12,624 bases of DNA from NCBI GenBank assembly GCA_903907475.1, contig CAIVOB010000167.1:1-12624 (forward strand), read 5' to 3'. Below, one piece after another: positions 3,235 through 10,907 of the stretch. The stretch is from Candidatus Omnitrophota bacterium. GTDB taxonomy: Bacteria; Omnitrophota; Gorgyraeia; Gygaellales; Profunditerraquicolaceae. Both the position numbers and the translations under genes were made by a program. A model generated the notes under the pieces. It was not told the DNA's origin. It ran no database searches and was given only the letters and a program-made list of their open reading frames with translations. How positions within the stretch are numbered: the first letter of the stretch is position 1; every line of letters begins with the position of its first letter.

Positions 3235-3681
3235 ATGCCTACTGATGCGCAGATGATTATGCGGCTGTTGTTAACTTTAGTTCTTAGTGGTTTAGTGGGT
3301 TTGGAACGGCAAGTACACCGTAGGGATGCCGGTTTACGGACGCATATTTTAGTGGCTTTAGGTTCCACTCTTATCATGTTGACATCTTTGTATGTTTTTG
3401 ATATATATAAAGATAAGGTGGCGTTGGATCCGGTACGGATTGCTGCGGGAGTGGTTACCGGGATCGGGTTTTTAGGGGCAGGAACAATTATTCGTGAGCC
3501 GGATGGAGTAAAAGGGCTCACTACTGCTGCGAGTTTATGGGTGGTTTCGGGAATTGGTTTGGCTGTAGGTTGTGGTTTTAATAAAGTGGCAATTTATACG
3601 ACAATTTTAGTTTTAATTGTTTTGCATTTCTTGCGTTTTGTAGAAGGATCACTTTGCAAGGAGGATAAACATGGCGTTTAA
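3235..3681 (+). CDS. MgtC/SapB family membrane protein
   Basis: A 148-residue, very hydrophobic protein with about four to five membrane segments. The family signature is clear: GLVGLERQ-x4-AGLRTHILVALGS (residues 20-44), then DPVRIAAGVVTGIGFLGAGTI (65-85) and KGLTTAASLWVVSGIGLAVG, ending in a last hydrophobic helix and a charged tail. E24, R25, R35 and D65 lie in the conserved core. Salmonella MgtC has an extra soluble C-terminal domain; this short form is only the membrane core, as in many YhiD/SapB proteins. MgtC in pathogens modulates F-type ATPase and supports growth at low magnesium, but the role of short environmental members is unknown and should not be assumed. It has a strong ribosome site, and its last 11 nt overlap the bactofilin gene. 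Confidence 0.9.
   Translation: MPTDAQMIMRLLLTLVLSGLVGLERQVHRRDAGLRTHILVALGSTLIMLTSLYVFDIYKDKVALDPVRIAAGVVTGIGFLGAGTIIREPDGVKGLTTAASLWVVSGIGLAVGCGFNKVAIYTTILVLIVLHFLRFVEGSLCKEDKHGV
3658..3665 (+). promoter_or_regulatory. Shine-Dalgarno site of the bactofilin gene, embedded in the MgtC-family coding end
   Basis: AAGGAGGA lies 5 nt before the ATG at 3671 and within the last codons of the preceding gene. The strong match supports ATG 3671 as the true start and the 11-nt gene overlap as real. Confidence 0.78.
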
Positions 3682-4174
3682 AAAGAAATTGGAAGAGAAG
3701 GTTTTGGATGTTGACGCGGCGATGCAGGGAACTTTAAGTTTTAAGGACGCGGTTAACTTAAGAATTAACGGAAAATTTGAAGGAAATTTGGATACTCGGG
3801 GCAATCTTACCATTGGGACCACAGCAGTGATTAACGCTGATATTATCGGAGATAATATCATTATCGGCGGACGCGTGAAAGGTAAAATTACGGCCCGAGA
3901 AAGATTGACGCTTTTACCTCAAGCGGTTGTGGAAGGCCATATCTATCCGGCCAAATTGAATATTATTGAAGGCGCGATTTTTGAAGGTCATTGCACGATG
4001 CTCCACGATTTTCTTAATTCGGAACAGTTAGCAAAATACTTAGAAGTGGAATTAAACTCTATTACGGAATGGGCAAATTCGGGAAAAGTACCGGGTAATA
4101 AAGAAGGTAATGATTGGAAATTTGAACGTAAAGCGATTGATAATTGGGTCGCGGCGGGTAAAATCGGTAAATAA
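3671..4174 (+). CDS. Bactofilin-family cytoskeletal protein with C-terminal excisionase-like helix-turn-helix
   Basis: A 167-residue protein. Residues about 14-110 form a bactofilin (polymer-forming cytoskeletal) beta-helix, visible as short repeats of the type LRINGKFEGNLDTRGNLTIGT, INADIIGDNIIIGGRVKGKI, LTLLPQAVVEGHIYPAKLNI and EGAIFEGHCTM. Bactofilins polymerise without nucleotide into membrane-associated filaments. Residues 114-167 form a second module, beginning FLNSEQLAKYLEV and ending FERKAIDNWVAAGKI, that looks like the MerR/excisionase (HTH_17) fold: N-terminal helix-turn-helix, short wing, final helix with the aromatic-lysine pattern. This resembles the domain opening the next gene, 2 nt downstream. 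A bactofilin plus DNA-binding-like module is unusual; it may bind DNA or act as a protein-interaction domain. Bactofilin core sure, tail domain probable. Confidence 0.85.
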   Translation: MAFKKKLEEKVLDVDAAMQGTLSFKDAVNLRINGKFEGNLDTRGNLTIGTTAVINADIIGDNIIIGGRVKGKITARERLTLLPQAVVEGHIYPAKLNIIEGAIFEGHCTMLHDFLNSEQLAKYLEVELNSITEWANSGKVPGNKEGNDWKFERKAIDNWVAAGKIGK

Positions 4175-4176
4175 AT

Positions 4177-4488
4177 ATGACGGAAGAAAAATTACTTACT
4201 GTTCGGGATGTGGCGGTTATTTTGGGAGTTTCGGAAAAAGATGTTTTAGACTTGGCGGAAAACTCCGCGCTTCCGGCCTATAAGGTGGGGGGAGTTTATT
4301 TAAGATTTAAAAAAGAGCAGGTGGAGCAGTATAAGAAAAATTCCGTGTATTTACAGTCGCCTAAAAACATGCCCCTTCAGGCGAGCCTCAAAGATCAAGT
4401 GCATGATTTTTTTTATTTCAATGATTTTTATATTTTTGTGGCAATTTTTATAATCCTTTTGGGAATTTTGGTTTTCCGGGGGTTATAA
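4177..4488 (+). CDS. Small helix-turn-helix protein with C-terminal membrane anchor
   Basis: A 103-residue protein. Residues 5-53 match the excisionase-like HTH_17 pattern: LLTVRDVAVILGVSEKDVLDL (helix-turn-helix), ALPAYKVGGVYLRF (wing) and KKEQVEQYKKN (closing helix). A 30-residue polar linker follows, then a single hydrophobic segment at about 84-100 ending in FRGL, which predicts a tail-anchored protein with the HTH domain in the cytoplasm. The upstream bactofilin ends in the same kind of domain, and the two genes are 2 nt apart, so the products probably work together at the membrane. Excisionase-type HTH domains normally bind DNA, but no phage or integrase gene is nearby. Function unknown; no clear Shine-Dalgarno site, so coupling to the bactofilin gene is likely. 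Confidence 0.8.
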   Translation: MTEEKLLTVRDVAVILGVSEKDVLDLAENSALPAYKVGGVYLRFKKEQVEQYKKNSVYLQSPKNMPLQASLKDQVHDFFYFNDFYIFVAIFIILLGILVFRGL

Positions 4489-4492
4489 CGCC

Positions 4493-5167
4493 ATGTCGGA
4501 TAAAAATGGTTTTTGCGATTTAGGTTTTGCCAAATTAGATAGCGATCGAAAGAGGCGCAAAGGTTTTGCGGAAGTAATTTATTGCCCGGGCAAAGACCGC
4601 CAGCATTTAAAAAAAATTGTTAAAAAGATTATCGCTTCCGGCGAAGATCTGTTGTTGACAAAATTAGATAGAACCACTTATTTATTCCTTAAAAAAAATT
4701 ATCCTGCTTTAAAATATAATCCTCTGGGAAAAATCGGTTTTATTTTAGCAAAATCTAAAACACTTTCTAAAGATATGGTTTTAGTAGTTTCTGCCGGCAC
4801 GAGTGATATTCCGGTTGCGGAAGAAGCGGTACAGACATTGCTGGTTATGGGTAATCGCGTGGAAAAACTCTATGATGTGGGAGTGGCCGGAGTGCACCGC
4901 TTAGTTAACAATTTAGAAAAATTAAAACAAGCGAGAGTTATTATTGTTGTTGCGGGAATGGAGGGGGCGCTAGCAAGTGTGGTGAGCGGTTTGGTAAAAA
5001 CTCCGATCGTTGCCGTTCCTACTAGCTGCGGATATGGTTCGAGTTTCCAAGGGTTGGCGGCGCTTTTATCAATGCTTAATGGCTGTTCGCCGGGAGTCAC
5101 GGTGGTTAATATTGATAATGGATTTGGTGCGGGTTATTTTGCGAGTTTAATTAATAAGAGGCAATAA
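4493..5167 (+). CDS. larB: LarB family protein (pyridinium-3,5-biscarboxylate mononucleotide synthase)
   Basis: A 224-residue protein of the LarB family, with an AIR-carboxylase (PurE)-like C-terminal domain. The N-terminal segment GFAKLDSDRKRRKGFAEVIYCPGK matches the family. The core has VVSAGTSDIPVAEEA, YDVGVAGVHRL, VVAGMEGALASVVSGL, VAVPTSCGYGSSFQG and MLNGCSPGVTVVNIDNGFGAG. C198 in LNGC corresponds to the LarB cysteine that forms the covalent adduct with NaAD (C221 in the Lactobacillus enzyme). LarB carboxylates and hydrolyses nicotinic acid adenine dinucleotide in the first step of the nickel-pincer nucleotide cofactor pathway. The extreme N-terminus is about 20 residues shorter than usual. 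It starts 4 nt after the HTH gene and overlaps acsC by one base (TAATG). larC and larE are not in the window, so whether the cofactor is made is open. Confidence 0.92.
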   Translation: MSDKNGFCDLGFAKLDSDRKRRKGFAEVIYCPGKDRQHLKKIVKKIIASGEDLLLTKLDRTTYLFLKKNYPALKYNPLGKIGFILAKSKTLSKDMVLVVSAGTSDIPVAEEAVQTLLVMGNRVEKLYDVGVAGVHRLVNNLEKLKQARVIIVVAGMEGALASVVSGLVKTPIVAVPTSCGYGSSFQGLAALLSMLNGCSPGVTVVNIDNGFGAGYFASLINKRQ

Positions 5168-6498
5168 TGGCATTTTCAGGTTTAGATATTTATAAATTAC
5201 TTCCCAAAACTAATTGCCGGGAGTGCGGCTTGGCAACTTGTCTGGCTTTTGCGATGCAGTTGGCTAAAAAAACTGTGGGCCTTGAAAAATGTCCTTTTGT
5301 TTCAGAGGAGTCTAAAAATATTTTAGAGGCGCAGGCTTTGCCGCCGATTAAGCAAATTACAATCGGCGTAGACGATAATCACTTTGATTTGGGCAATGAA
5401 ACCGTGCTTTTCAGGCACGAGGAAAAATTTCGGAATCAACCGGGAATCGGTTTTGTAATTGAAGATAGCTTAACGGATGCCCAAATTACGCAACGCTTAA
5501 ATAAGATTAATGATTTTAAATTTGAGCGGGTGGGTCAAGAGCTCAAAGTTAATTTAGTAGCTTTAAAATTTAGCCAAAATGAAAAACGCTACTTGGAAGT
5601 TGTAAAACTGGTTTTAAAGCAAACCCTGCTGCCGTTAGTATTAATTTGCCAAGAGGCGCAGGTTTTGCGCCAGGCTTTAGTATTAGCGCAAACGCGCGCT
5701 CCAGTAATTTTTGGCGCAAATCCGGAAAACTTAAATTTAATCGGCGCGCTTGCTAAAGAGTTTAACGCGCCTTTAGTCGTTAGTGCTGCGGATATCGTGG
5801 CTTTAACTAAGTTGACCGAAGAATTAAAAACTTTAGGCGTTAAAGATTTAATTTTAGATACCGGTGATAAGCCGGTCGCGGAAAAAATCTGGGATTTAAC
5901 GCAATTACGCAGGCAGGCGCTTAAGAAATCCAACCGCGCATTAGGTTATCCGTCTTTAGTCGTCGTAAAACAATCGGATCCGTATCAAGAGGCAATCGAG
6001 GCCACCGCTTATATCGCTAAATACGCCGGGATTATCCTGATTCAGGGCCTGGATTCTTGGGAGATTCTCTCAATTTTAACTTTAAGGCAGGATATTTATT
6101 CTGATCCACAAAAGCCCTTACAGATTGAGCCGAAAATTTATCCGGTAGGCTTAGTGACGGATAAATCTCCGGTTTTAATTACCACCAATTTTTCACTTAC
6201 CTATTACACGGTTTTAGCCGAAGTTGAAGCCAGTAAAGTGCCGGCTTATATTTTAAGTATTGATACGCAAGGGATGTCGGTTTTAACTGCTTGGGCAGCG
6301 GATAAATTCAGCGCCGAGTATATTACTAAGGCTGTTGCGGATGCTAAGGTTAAGGAGTTAGTTAAACATAATAATTTAATTATTCCCGGGTATGTAGCGA
6401 TGTTAAGCGGAGACTTAGAGGAGAGTTCAGGTTGCAATATAATTGTTGGGCCCAAAGAAGCTGCCGGGATTCCGTCATTTTTAAAAAATTTAAGTTAA
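5167..6498 (+). CDS. acsC: Corrinoid iron-sulfur protein (CFeSP) large subunit, acetyl-CoA synthase complex gamma subunit
   Basis: A 443-residue protein, close to the usual family length. The N-terminal 4Fe-4S domain has C17-x2-C20-x4-C25-x16-C42 (TNCRECGLATC ... EKCPF), the low-potential cluster that passes electrons to the corrinoid. A TIM-barrel region follows, then a C-terminal Rossmann-like corrinoid-binding domain with TTNFSLTYYTV, SIDTQGMSVLTAWAADKF and IPGYVAMLSGDLEE. With AcsD it forms the heterodimer that carries methyl-cobalt between the AcsE methyltransferase and acetyl-CoA synthase. AAGAGG at 5156-5161 is a reasonable ribosome site 5 nt from the ATG, and the ATG overlaps the larB stop by one base. 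The gene lies in the order larB-acsC-acsV-cooC-acsD-acsE with no internal promoter seen. Confidence 0.97.
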   Translation: MAFSGLDIYKLLPKTNCRECGLATCLAFAMQLAKKTVGLEKCPFVSEESKNILEAQALPPIKQITIGVDDNHFDLGNETVLFRHEEKFRNQPGIGFVIEDSLTDAQITQRLNKINDFKFERVGQELKVNLVALKFSQNEKRYLEVVKLVLKQTLLPLVLICQEAQVLRQALVLAQTRAPVIFGANPENLNLIGALAKEFNAPLVVSAADIVALTKLTEELKTLGVKDLILDTGDKPVAEKIWDLTQLRRQALKKSNRALGYPSLVVVKQSDPYQEAIEATAYIAKYAGIILIQGLDSWEILSILTLRQDIYSDPQKPLQIEPKIYPVGLVTDKSPVLITTNFSLTYYTVLAEVEASKVPAYILSIDTQGMSVLTAWAADKFSAEYITKAVADAKVKELVKHNNLIIPGYVAMLSGDLEESSGCNIIVGPKEAAGIPSFLKNLS

Positions 6499-6503
6499 AA
6501 AAT

Positions 6504-8435
6504 ATGCAAAAATTTAAAGTCACTTTTTTACCGGATAATATTACGATTCAAGCTGAACAGGATAAAACCATCCTGGCTGCGGCGATTTCAGTCGGGATTA
6601 ATCTTAACTCTAACTGCGGCGGGGATGGAGTCTGCGGAAGGTGTAAGGTGATTTTAAGGGATGGAAAAGTTAACAGTCAGCCCAGTGGAATTATTACTTT
6701 AGAAGAAAAGCAAAAAAATATTCACTTAGCCTGTCTTTCTACGATCCATAGCGATTTAGTGGTTGAGATTCCGGAAAGCTCTCGCTTAAATTTGGAGAGA
6801 TTAACTCCCGAAGAATTGGCACAGCGCTTAAACGGATTATATTCTAAGGCCGAAGACATCCAGCCGCTTAATCTTGATCCGGCTGCCGGAATTTTTACGC
6901 ATTCGCCGTTGGCAACTAAAATATTTTTAGAACTTAAACCGCCGACTTTGGATGATAATTTAAGTGATCTAGAGCGGCTTTACCGGGCTTTACGTATTTA
7001 CGGTGATTTTCCCGTAATTCAGACCGGATTATTTAATATCCGGCAGCTAGGGGAATTATTACGAGATTCTGATTGGAAGGTCACCGTGACATTGGGTAAG
7101 CGCAATGACACAATTGAAATTTTCTTAATTGAAACCGGGGACACTACTGCGAAAAATTTTGGACTGGCTTTTGATATTGGTACAACTACGATCTCCGGAC
7201 AGTTGATTGATTTAAAAACCAAGAAAATTTTAGGCTCTAAAGCTACTTATAATCAGCAGTCGGCTTTTGGAAGTGACGTGATTACGCGTATTGTTTATGC
7301 CGGTTCATCCGAAGGCCTAGAAAAATTGCATAATGCTGTCTGCGATACGATGAACCAGATTATCCGGGAGTTGGCGGAAGAATATAAAGTTGATTTAAAT
7401 GATGTTAATTGCCTGGTGTGCGCAGGTAATACCACGATGCTGCATTTGTTATTAAATTTGGACCCGGGAAGCATTCGTAAAGAACCATATGTGCCGACGG
7501 CAAATTTTTTCCCGGTCTTGCGGGCTTCCGAAGTCGGGATTAATATTAACCCCAGAGGGTTATTGGCAACCGTGCCCGGAGTTTCCAGTTATATCGGAGG
7601 AGATATTACCTCCGGTGTCCTATCAAGCGGAATTTTTCAGCAAGAAGCGCCTTGCATTTTAATTGATATCGGCACTAACGGTGAGATTGTTTTAGGTAAT
7701 CGTGATTTCCTGGTTGGTTGCGCGGCGTCTGCGGGCCCGGCGTTTGAAGGTAGTGGAGTAACCAGCGGTATGCGGGCAACCAGTGGGGCGATTCAAAAAT
7801 TTACGATTAATAAAAAAGATTTGAAGATTGAATATTTTACGATTAGTAATAAAAAACCACGTGGCATTTGCGGCTCCGGTTATATTGATTTGTTAAGTGC
7901 GATGCTTGAAACCGGAATAATTGATCGTAATGGTAAATTTAAAATTATTGATCCACGCATCCGCCAGACGGATAACGGTAAGGAATTCTTGCTTTGTTCA
8001 AAAAGCGAAACCGAAGGTGAAATTGAAATTGTGATTAACGAGGCGGATATCGACAATTTAAAACGGGCTAAAGGTGCGATTTATTCTGCCACGGCGATTC
8101 TTGCCCGGCATCTGGATTTAGAATTAAACTCAATTTCAAAATTTTTCATTGCCGGAGGGTTCGGAACTTATCTTGATATTGAAAAGGCGATAAAAATCGG
8201 ATTATTGCCGGATTTAGAGCGCTCCAAGTTTGTTTTTATCGGCAATAGCGCGTTAGCCGGAGCAAGACAGATTGTTTTATCTACAACCGCGATGATGATG
8301 GCCCAAGAATTAGCAAATCGCATTACTTATTTTGAATTATCAGTTGATCCGGGTTATATGGATGAATACGGCCAGGCCTTATTTTTTCCGCATACGGATT
8401 TAACTAAGTTTCCAACGGTAAAATTTTCTAAATGA
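6504..8435 (+). CDS. acsV: Reductive activator of CFeSP (RACo; ferredoxin plus ASKHA ATPase)
   Basis: A 643-residue protein. By family it uses ATP to reactivate CFeSP when its corrinoid drifts to Co(II). The N-terminal 2Fe-2S ferredoxin domain has C38-x5-C44-x2-C47 and C77 (NCGGDGVCGRC ... HLACLS). After a linker and middle domain (to about residue 215) comes the ASKHA-type ATPase (DUF4445) with FDIGTTTIS (D224), CAGNTTMLHLLL, IDIGTNGEI (D388), GICGSGYIDLL and IAGGFGTYLD (about 549-558). I place the start at ATG 6504 because the protein then begins KFKVTFLPDNI, as expected for this ferredoxin fold; an in-frame ATG at 6432 would add 24 unrelated residues overlapping acsC by 67 nt. No Shine-Dalgarno site is visible 5 nt after the acsC stop, so translational coupling is likely. 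acsV is the symbol used in acetogens. Confidence 0.94.
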   Translation: MQKFKVTFLPDNITIQAEQDKTILAAAISVGINLNSNCGGDGVCGRCKVILRDGKVNSQPSGIITLEEKQKNIHLACLSTIHSDLVVEIPESSRLNLERLTPEELAQRLNGLYSKAEDIQPLNLDPAAGIFTHSPLATKIFLELKPPTLDDNLSDLERLYRALRIYGDFPVIQTGLFNIRQLGELLRDSDWKVTVTLGKRNDTIEIFLIETGDTTAKNFGLAFDIGTTTISGQLIDLKTKKILGSKATYNQQSAFGSDVITRIVYAGSSEGLEKLHNAVCDTMNQIIRELAEEYKVDLNDVNCLVCAGNTTMLHLLLNLDPGSIRKEPYVPTANFFPVLRASEVGININPRGLLATVPGVSSYIGGDITSGVLSSGIFQQEAPCILIDIGTNGEIVLGNRDFLVGCAASAGPAFEGSGVTSGMRATSGAIQKFTINKKDLKIEYFTISNKKPRGICGSGYIDLLSAMLETGIIDRNGKFKIIDPRIRQTDNGKEFLLCSKSETEGEIEIVINEADIDNLKRAKGAIYSATAILARHLDLELNSISKFFIAGGFGTYLDIEKAIKIGLLPDLERSKFVFIGNSALAGARQIVLSTTAMMMAQELANRITYFELSVDPGYMDEYGQALFFPHTDLTKFPTVKFSK

Positions 8436-9184
8436 GCTATATTATCGCATTAGCCGGTAAAGGCGGAACAGGAAAGACGACGGTTGCCTCTCTAATTATT
8501 CGCAGTATTTGGGAGAAAAAGTTGGGCTCGATTTTGGCCATTGATGCTGATCCTAATAGTAACCTGGGTGAAGCATTGGGGATTGAGGTTAGGCAATCTG
8601 TGGGCACGATTTTAGATGAGATCGGTGCTCATCCCGATAAAATTCCGTCGGGAATGACTAAAGACCGTTTTATCCAGTTTAAAGTACAGGAAGCGGTTTA
8701 TGAAGGGCGAGGAGTAGATTTGTTAAATATGGGTAAACCCGAAGGCCCAGGATGTTATTGCTACGTGAATAATGTTTTGCGTGGGGCGATGACGGAATTA
8801 ATTAAAAATTATGATTTTATCATTATTGATAACGAAGCCGGCCTCGAGCATCTATCACGCCGCACTACGCGTGCTGCCGATGCTTTAATCGTGGTTTCCG
8901 ATGCTACTAGTGTTGGTTTAAAAAGCGCTGCTCGGATTAAGGAGTTGGCTAAAGAGTTGAAGTTTGATGTAAAAAGAAGTTATTTACTGGTAAATCGTTA
9001 TAATCCCAAGTTGGAGAAAGAAAAAATTAAAGAAACTGGTTTGGATTATTTGGGAAATTTACCGTTTGATACTGAAATTGAAACATTGAGCTTAAAAGGA
9101 AAATCAATTTTTGATTTAAAGCCCGAGGCGCAGATTTTAAAAGCTTTGAAATTATGGGGAGAAAAATTATGGATCCGCAGTTAG
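8432..9184 (+). CDS. cooC: CooC/AcsF-type nickel-insertion ATPase for CODH/ACS
   Basis: A 250-residue MinD/SIMIBI-class ATPase. It has the deviant Walker A GKGGTGKTT (residues 9-17, K10 and K15), the switch-like AIDADPNSNLGEALG (36-50) and DFIIIDNEAGLEHLSR. The CooC hallmark is the C-x-C pair C108-Y-C110 in GPGCYCYVNNVLR, which in Carboxydothermus CooC binds metal at the dimer interface. CooC/AcsF loads nickel into CODH or acetyl-CoA synthase, driven by ATP. Its presence implies those enzymes exist elsewhere in the genome. The start overlaps acsV by 4 nt (ATGA), and the end overlaps acsD by 16 nt. CooC and AcsF paralogues cannot be told apart by sequence inspection alone. Confidence 0.93.
   Translation: MSYIIALAGKGGTGKTTVASLIIRSIWEKKLGSILAIDADPNSNLGEALGIEVRQSVGTILDEIGAHPDKIPSGMTKDRFIQFKVQEAVYEGRGVDLLNMGKPEGPGCYCYVNNVLRGAMTELIKNYDFIIIDNEAGLEHLSRRTTRAADALIVVSDATSVGLKSAARIKELAKELKFDVKRSYLLVNRYNPKLEKEKIKETGLDYLGNLPFDTEIETLSLKGKSIFDLKPEAQILKALKLWGEKLWIRS
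9157..9162 (+). promoter_or_regulatory. Shine-Dalgarno site deciding the acsD start
   Basis: GGGGAG ends 6 nt before the ATG at 9169 and sits inside the end of the cooC coding sequence. An in-frame ATG at 9154 lies upstream of this site and would add only MGRKI, so 9169 is the better start. Confidence 0.6.
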
Positions 9185-10104
9185 TAGTAGATAAATGGCC
9201 AGGTACGATTTTTACAGTTGCCATCGGCGCTAAATCTAATGAAGGTGGTAGCCGCAATGAAGAAATTAAAATCGGCGGCCAGAACTGCCTGCCGTTAATG
9301 TTTAAAGAAGGCGTGATTGCGCATCCGCCGCAAATAGCTTTTGAGATTCTTGATATTCCCGGAGTAGATTTAAGCGAAGAGTTGGTGAAGGTCTATGGTG
9401 CAGCCTTAAAAGATCCTTTAAGCTGGGCGCAAAAATGCGTGCAGGAGTTTGGAGCCAAGCTTATCAGCGTTAAAATGCAAGGGAGTCATCCGGATTTTGG
9501 CAACCGCTCACCGCTGGAATCGGCAAAATTTATCGAGTTACTTTTAAAAAAAGTTAACGCGCCGTTAATTATTACCGGCAGCGGAGATGATGCCAATGAC
9601 AGCCTGGTCATCCCGGCTTGCTCCGAAGCTGCTAAGGGTGAGCGTTGTTTAATCGGTTCTGCGGTACAAGACAGCTATAAAACTTTAGTAGCAAGTGTTT
9701 TAGCAGACGGGCATAGTTTAATCGCGGAAAGCCCGATTGATATTAATATTGCCAAACAACTTAATATTTTAATTTCGGATATGGGTTTAGGTTTAGAGCG
9801 CATCGTGATTAATCCGACGATCGGCGCGCTTGGTTACGGCTTAGAGTATGCTTATTCGATTATGGAGCGGGCAAGGATTGCCGCCTTAGCCGGAGATAAA
9901 ACGCTGGCTTGTCCGTTTATTTGTTTTGTGGGACAAGAGGCCTGGAAAACAAAAGAGGCAAAAGTTAATCCTGAACAGGGGATTATTTGGGAAACCATTA
10001 CTGCCACAAGTTTGATCCAGGCAGGCGCTGACCTTTTGGTAATGCAGCATCCCCGAGCAGTGTCTAAGGTGAGTCAATTTATGGAGCAATTGTTTAAAAA
10101 GTAA
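9169..10104 (+). CDS. acsD: Corrinoid iron-sulfur protein (CFeSP) small subunit, acetyl-CoA synthase complex delta subunit
   Basis: A 311-residue TIM-barrel protein, with the family features IGGQNCLPLMF near the N-terminus, the GSHPD and ADGHSL turns, and SDMGLGLERIVINPTIGALGYGLEYAYSIMERARIAALAGDKTL in the C-terminal third (quoted in parts below 20 residues: INPTIGALGYGLEYAYS; ERARIAALAGD). It pairs with AcsC to form CFeSP, and the corrinoid lies at their interface. There is no iron-sulfur motif, as expected for this subunit. I chose ATG 9169, with GGGGAG upstream, over ATG 9154. It overlaps cooC by 16 nt and precedes acsE by 14 nt. The length is close to known AcsD proteins, and nothing is missing at either end. 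Confidence 0.94.
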   Translation: MDPQLVVDKWPGTIFTVAIGAKSNEGGSRNEEIKIGGQNCLPLMFKEGVIAHPPQIAFEILDIPGVDLSEELVKVYGAALKDPLSWAQKCVQEFGAKLISVKMQGSHPDFGNRSPLESAKFIELLLKKVNAPLIITGSGDDANDSLVIPACSEAAKGERCLIGSAVQDSYKTLVASVLADGHSLIAESPIDINIAKQLNILISDMGLGLERIVINPTIGALGYGLEYAYSIMERARIAALAGDKTLACPFICFVGQEAWKTKEAKVNPEQGIIWETITATSLIQAGADLLVMQHPRAVSKVSQFMEQLFKK

Positions 10105-10118
10105 AGGGAAATTAAAAA

Positions 10119-10907
10119 ATGTATGTGATTGGTGAGCTAATTAATGGGATGTATTCAAATATCGCGCTGGCTTTAAAAGAAAAAAATAAAGCCATCATCC
10201 AGAAATGTGCGCTCGACCAGATTGCCAGCGGCGCTGATGCTTTAGATATTAGCTGCGGGCCGGCATCCAAGCAACCGTTAGTCGATTTATCCTGGTTAAT
10301 TAATACGATTCAGGAAGTTACGGATAAGCCCTTGTGCCTTGATTCCGGAAAGCCTCAGGTGATTGCTGAAGGGTTAAAAGTTTGTAAGAATAAGACGATT
10401 ATTAATTCTACTACCGCGGATTTAGATAAGCTTGATGCGATTGTGCCGTTGGCTAAACAATATAACTCAAAATTAATTGGAATTACGATTAGCGTTAAGG
10501 GTATTCCGCAAAATAAAGACCAGCGCTTGGAACTGGCAGCAACAATTATTTCGCATTGTACAGAAAACGGCTTTCCGATCGAAGATTTATATTTGGATCC
10601 AATAGTATTGCCGGTAAACATTGCGCAAGCGCAGATGAAAGATATTTTGGCAACAATTCAGGACTTTAAATTACTGGCCGATCCGGGGCCAAAGACGGTT
10701 TTGGGTTTAAGTAATGTATCGCAAGGCACAAATTTACGCAGCCTAATAAATCGCACATTTTTAACAATGGCAGTTGCAAACGGCTTAGATTCTGCTATAC
10801 TTGACCCTACGGATAAAGAGTTAATGGACGCATTAATTACGGCAGAGCTGATTTTAAACAAGAATATCTACTGTGATTCGTATCTGGAAGCCTACCGTAA
10901 AAAATAA
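10119..10907 (+). CDS. acsE: Methyltetrahydrofolate:corrinoid iron-sulfur protein methyltransferase
   Basis: A 262-residue pterin-binding TIM barrel, the same length as Moorella AcsE. It transfers the N5 methyl of methyl-THF to cob(I)amide in AcsCD, joining the folate branch to the acetyl-CoA branch. All residues known to matter in Moorella fall at the same numbers: D75 in CLDS, N96 in IINST, D160 in YLDP and N199 in GLSNVSQ. The second-shell opening is IGELINGMY where Moorella has GERINGM, a conservative-site R-to-L change at residue 7. AGGGA at 10105-10109 gives a ribosome site 9 nt before the ATG. It is the last gene of the + strand run; the tRNA locus follows 111 nt later. No convincing terminator is seen after the stop. 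Confidence 0.97.
   Translation: MYVIGELINGMYSNIALALKEKNKAIIQKCALDQIASGADALDISCGPASKQPLVDLSWLINTIQEVTDKPLCLDSGKPQVIAEGLKVCKNKTIINSTTADLDKLDAIVPLAKQYNSKLIGITISVKGIPQNKDQRLELAATIISHCTENGFPIEDLYLDPIVLPVNIAQAQMKDILATIQDFKLLADPGPKTVLGLSNVSQGTNLRSLINRTFLTMAVANGLDSAILDPTDKELMDALITAELILNKNIYCDSYLEAYRKK

Follow-up and report, generated by a model that had tools for sequence, protein, structure and literature searches.

The window analyzed here, a stretch of DNA of 12,624 nucleotides, is one contig of an Omnitrophota genome (1.19 Mb in 196 contigs, 94% complete) whose near relatives carry the names Omnitrophota or Omnitrophica. It contains two adjacent genes, encoding proteins 1 and 2, which are preceded by genes for an S41 peptidase (CtpA-like), a PF04748 deacetylase, TsaD, and MgtC, and followed by a gene for a PF00731 protein and then by CO dehydrogenase/acetyl-CoA synthase pathway genes (5167–10907); genes of this pathway come after the pair in many relatives within the same order as well. 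The gene order gatA-gatB-ctpA-deacetylase-tsaD-mgtC-pair is mostly preserved across the class; the names gatA, gatB, and larB are our presumptive assignments from the sequences. The features of the pair are:

3658–3664, forward strand: likely Shine-Dalgarno sequence AAGGAGG of the bactofilin gene, read in the sequence
3671–4174, forward strand: bactofilin with a C-terminal winged helix-turn-helix (wHTH), 167 aa, from the ORF and Pfam search
4010–4156, forward strand: HTH_17 part of the bactofilin gene, from the profile match in the whole-genome search (family mean net charge −2.8)
4177–4488, forward strand: predicted tail-anchored wHTH protein, 103 aa (PF12728 at residues 6–54; AF2 model; phylum-wide conservation)
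4279–4281, forward strand: codon of Tyr35, a wing residue (Tyr/Phe in 200 of 202 proteins with the partner and 5 of 13 without)
4405–4434, forward strand: conserved juxtamembrane motif DFFYFNDFYI, residues 77–86, from per-column conservation over 185 pairs
4423–4476, forward strand: predicted C-terminal membrane helix, residues 83–100, from DSSP of the model and hydropathy of relatives

Protein 1 consists of a bactofilin domain (residues 11–108; 86.3 bits for PF04519 in the Pfam search, cut-off 27.9) with the predicted beta-helix fold, followed by an HTH_17 domain (residues 114–162), while protein 2 consists of an HTH_17 domain (residues 6–54), a linker of low confidence in the AF2 model, and a C-terminal hydrophobic helix. 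The two HTH_17 profile scores are 32.0 and 39.0 bits (cut-off 27), and both domains have the predicted MerR-like wHTH fold. The first-pass annotation had described the locus as a bactofilin-HTH gene paired with a membrane-anchored HTH gene, and this is confirmed by the Pfam matches, the AF2 model, and the fold matches, including the predicted HTH fold of the bactofilin tail, on which that description had been made to depend. When the host genome was searched with protein 1 no second bactofilin was found, the two other matches covering the HTH end only. In relatives, four second bactofilin-like copies (G005:C114, G016:C28, G041:C5, and G136:C74) match only to residue 118–141, two of them containing a stop codon, and at one locus (L248, 5415–5920) the bactofilin-HTH is broken into two overlapping ORFs.

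The N-terminus of protein 1, MAFKKK, resembles a membrane-targeting sequence, being near the consensus MFSKKKK that appears in excerpts of PMC12448750. Among the 162 relatives (of 185) whose N-terminus could be placed by pattern, with starts called mechanically, 133 have a hydrophobic residue at positions 2–4. With such a start, the bactofilin may reach the membrane on its own, without protein 2. In protein 2, the DFxYFNDFYI motif beside the membrane helix (window 4405–4434 and relatives) is more conserved than most of the HTH.

The pair is conserved well beyond this genome. In 139 of the 144 loci that match the bactofilin profile, protein 2 is adjacent on the same strand; of the five exceptions, L073 has the two genes merged into a single ORF, L083 lies at the end of a contig, and L109–L111, from other phyla, lack the partner. 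Forty of the 144, mostly distant, were laid out gene by gene and all hold the pair, which is also adjacent in 80 of 80 further loci and in 20 of 20 of a later set (three of which repeat earlier loci); these loci were picked because one gene matched, and the collections overlap, 219 pair loci amounting to 185 distinct pairs. Outside the class the pair is intact in ten of ten loci (L322, L326–L329, L336, L339, L345, L349, and L351), and in eight of these the genes directly before it match none of the class cluster; L339 has the same upstream genes as the class, and the contig of L322 starts at that point. The single ORF at L073 (5001–5810, 271 aa) combines bactofilin-HTH and protein 2, with the match to protein 1 ending at residue 147, and is either a genuine fusion or an assembly error. 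In the phylum of L109 (Candidatus Auribacter), none of the matches listed for 44 genomes spans both the bactofilin part and the HTH end, and in four HTH-bearing ORFs that were read from this phylum the C-terminal part is long and presumably PTS EIIA-like.

Co-occurrence was counted by hand from match tables of 285 genomes of the phylum, with E ≤1e-30 for protein 1 and E ≤1e-16 for protein 2 taken as strong. Both proteins have strong matches in 239 genomes (in one of which, G162, the bactofilin is divided over two ORFs), protein 2 alone in 16, and neither in 29; in the one remaining genome, G235, protein 1 is accompanied by a weak match to protein 2, inside which the contig breaks off. A strong match to protein 2 is hence present in 239 of the 240 genomes with a strong bactofilin-HTH match, and this contig-edge case is the only bactofilin-HTH without protein 2 found among the 285. 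Conservation of the pair outside its own genome had been set beforehand as another point on which the first-pass reading would stand or fall, and on this point it stands. Where the source names them, the proteins of the pair in these 239 of 285 genomes bear only automatic names (for example ‘excisionase family DNA binding protein’, ‘helix-turn-helix domain-containing protein’, or ‘polymer-forming cytoskeletal protein’), and among the papers listed in searches of open-licence PubMed Central none describes such a protein.

The dependence runs one way. In three of the 16 protein 2-only genomes (G071, G090, and G230), protein 2 lies at the edge of its contig; in the other 13, which are complete at the locus, a PF04519 search detected no bactofilin. 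Protein 2 directly follows mgtC in seven of these and tsaD in five, and the thirteenth (L241) is represented by its protein alone. By family they fall into f36 (four), f13 (six), f15 (two), and f48 (one), and because f36, f15, and f48 also hold members with a strong bactofilin match, the simpler reading is that bactofilin was lost, about four times. The first-pass annotation had envisaged a module linking cytoskeleton, envelope, and perhaps DNA: the filament–envelope link is supported by the predicted HTH fold of the bactofilin tail and by conservation of the pair far outside the genome, but the two partners are not equivalent, as protein 2 is kept in 13 genomes with no detected bactofilin. 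Since its HTH is retained in these genomes, protein 2 should have a further partner besides bactofilin, and since the juxtamembrane motif is also largely kept there, the role of that motif seems to be independent of the filament. A diverged protein 2-like ORF (E 4e-12) in a different gene context, in a genome where no bactofilin was found (G131, L250), was left out of the counts.

Six positions of protein 2 (16, 35, 43, 78, 84, and 85) are at least 95% identical over the 185 pairs, position 35 exceeding 95% in this set only. Five of them (16, 43, 78, 84, and 85) keep the majority residue in 11–13 of the 13 bactofilin-less proteins; position 35 is Tyr or Phe in 5 of the 13, His in seven, and Thr in one, the f48 genome G247. 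When 17 extra distinct proteins, most of them from f48, are added to bring the partnered set to 202, position 35 is Tyr in 184 (91%), Phe in 16, Val in one, and Leu in one (Tyr/Phe 99%). This residue lies in the wing and aligns with Ile40 of BldC, which is described in part of PMC5859096 as a contact within the BldC HTH–HTH interface. Position 35 thus appears to relax in most genomes where bactofilin was not found, which we regard as a lead rather than proof, because the position was picked post hoc, the lineages are few (about four losses), Tyr35 is retained without bactofilin in f36 (4/4) and in one of the two f15 genomes, and the comparison was made without the f15 genomes that have bactofilin.

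Covariation was analyzed by mean-field DCA over the 185 pairs (Neff 134), in which the four highest inter-protein couplings are all HTH–HTH. In a run with the HTH and protein 2, the top ten scores lay above 95 within-clade shuffles, except for the first score, which roughly 1% of the shuffles attained. In a neighbor control (140 loci with all genes), the bactofilin HTH or protein 2 scored equally high against TsaD or MgtC, and covariation was for this reason rejected as evidence for HTH–HTH docking.

To compare the charges of the HTHs, we used BldC numbering for 129 bactofilin HTHs (Neff 65; one row, the L073 ORF, contributes its protein 2 HTH instead), 140 protein 2 HTHs (Neff 104), and 32 other HTH_17 domains (Neff 12), this control being the best-scoring hits of related genomes and leaning to canonical members. 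The weighted mean net charge is −2.8 for bactofilin, +1.0 for protein 2, and +4.3 for the other HTH_17 domains, with +6 for the BldC fragment. Added up over ten DNA-face positions, the charge comes to +0.67 for bactofilin, −0.29 for protein 2, and +3.66 for the other HTH_17 domains. Neither HTH of the pair has the basic DNA-contact face typical of BldC, RacA, and Xis. Their recognition helices are mostly acidic (bactofilin: D/E at 24 in 94% and E/D at 30 in 86%; protein 2: E at 25 in 90% and E/D at 27 in 81%). The change of Arg30 to Glu was dropped as single-site proof against DNA binding, as D/E at position 30 is also found in half of the weighted control. The missing basic face argues against general DNA binding by both HTHs, without proving its absence, and it weakens the proposal of the first-pass annotation that DNA is tethered to bactofilin filaments. 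The same annotation had the two proteins share a domain, which holds at the level of the HTH_17 family and no further: the mean identity between the HTHs of proteins 1 and 2 is 22%, below their mean identities to other HTH_17 domains of related genomes (31% and 27%). A paralogous duplication is for this reason unsupported, and a small tree was weakly supported; the two HTHs are probably not each other's nearest relatives and look like separate recruits.

We consider a chromosome tether of the RacA or RocS kind, in which DNA bound by at least one of the HTHs is anchored to the membrane and the filament, to be quite unlikely. The top Foldseek match of protein 2 is RacA bound to DNA (5i44; E 0.004, with no match reaching 0.001), the top VIA match is BldC bound to DNA, and protein 2 retains Lys21 (72%), Lys36 (74%), and Arg43 (100%, all weighted). 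RocS of Streptococcus pneumoniae also combines an N-terminal MerR-type wHTH with a C-terminal membrane element, although it differs, as far as the excerpted text of PMC11500499 goes, in having a coiled coil, an amphipathic helix, and DNA binding; and a bactofilin of Myxococcus binds PadC, the recruiter of ParA, through a C-terminal extension (BacP-PadC-ParA; PMC5703909, in part), but that extension is disordered and the PadC adaptor ParB-like, unlike the wHTH pair here. Against such a tether stand the acidic recognition helices of both HTHs and the BldC variants H46E and R30A, which in the portion of PMC5859096 consulted essentially abolish DNA binding; BldC, Xis, and RacA share the fold and bind DNA, but the corresponding faces here are near neutral or acidic. 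Protein docking, direct or via a third partner, is likelier than a DNA tether, and the alternative raised in the first-pass annotation, that the HTHs bind each other or a shared partner, is the better of its readings. Among the fold matches is also the solved complex of a J-domain (3ucs) with CbpM, which we take to be a MerR-like domain that binds a protein; it superposes loosely, at an rmsd of 13.8 over 88 residues.

Docking could also be indirect, with both HTHs binding a common third cytoplasmic partner that protein 2 brings to the membrane and through which the filament joins. The persistence of protein 2 with its HTH where bactofilin was not found, the appearance of the HTHs as separate recruits, and an HTH–HTH covariation no higher than that with neighboring genes all fit this arrangement; nevertheless we think it unlikely, as the charge patterns of the two HTHs differ at aligned positions, which is odd for one target, and no constant third gene lies beside the pair across the laid-out loci, though adjacency is not required. 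That the two are independent housekeeping genes, joined by conserved gene order and sharing no function, seems very unlikely: most of the class does keep the whole cluster gatB-ctpA-deacetylase-tsaD-mgtC-pair in order and protein 2 outlives the loss of bactofilin, but the pair stays together in all ten outside-class loci, eight with different upstream genes, and bactofilin-HTH was not found without protein 2, the contig edge aside.

We tentatively favor an Omnitrophota-wide two-gene module in which protein 2 is a tail-anchored adaptor and the HTH of the bactofilin attaches the filament to it, a reading that we hold to be possible rather than probable. It draws directly on the predicted folds, the adjacency, the one-way dependence, the lack of a basic DNA face, and the relaxation at residue 35; polymerization, topology, the docking itself, and any part in growing or shaping the envelope are inferred. 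The C-terminal helix and YFNDFY motif of protein 2 would seat it within some component of the inner membrane or against one, with its wHTH pointing into the cytoplasm. Protein 1 would polymerize like other bactofilins, displaying a wHTH on each subunit, and the wHTHs would serve as protein-docking modules, the bactofilin HTH docking, directly or within one complex, on that side of the protein 2 HTH which bears the wing. Filaments would thereby be collected at the membrane sites of protein 2. The stricter version, a cytoskeletal system specific to the phylum where a DNA-binding domain has twice turned into a protein-docking module, once on each subunit of the bactofilin filament and once on a tail-anchored receptor, and HTH-to-HTH contact joins filament and membrane, is conceivable but doubtful.

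Compared with known bactofilins (PF04519; 6rib of T. thermophilus and BacA of C. crescentus, 2n3d), a wHTH is added here after the bactofilin domain. RodZ, a membrane-anchored protein whose HTH binds MreB, follows the same logic of a membrane-anchored HTH on a cytoskeletal polymer with a different HTH family. BacA-PbpC of Caulobacter likewise combines a filament with a membrane protein that has a cytoplasmic part, but PbpC, a cell wall synthase, makes its contact, according to extracts of PMC12448750, via its N-terminal cytoplasmic region, whereas protein 2 is small, a wHTH protein whose chain all but ends with the membrane helix. If the docking model is true, it shows a DNA-binding fold becoming a cytoskeletal connector, in a two-protein system small enough to be rebuilt in E. 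coli.

The Pfam matches of protein 2 up to E 1 list HTH_17 and not HTH_25, of which a match is present elsewhere in the host genome. Protein 2 as a substitute for RodZ is unsupported: of 35 chosen genomes, all 35 have MreB matches and 30 have an HTH_25 match, including all 13 in which no bactofilin was found. Five f23 genomes (G121, G239, G261, G302, and G322) show no strong match to either protein and no HTH_25, with MreB matches present (partial in some); G316 is a sixth such genome, except for a weak HTH_25 match. Many of the related genomes also encode a stand-alone HTH_17 protein that is small and basic (L004 and similar ORFs).
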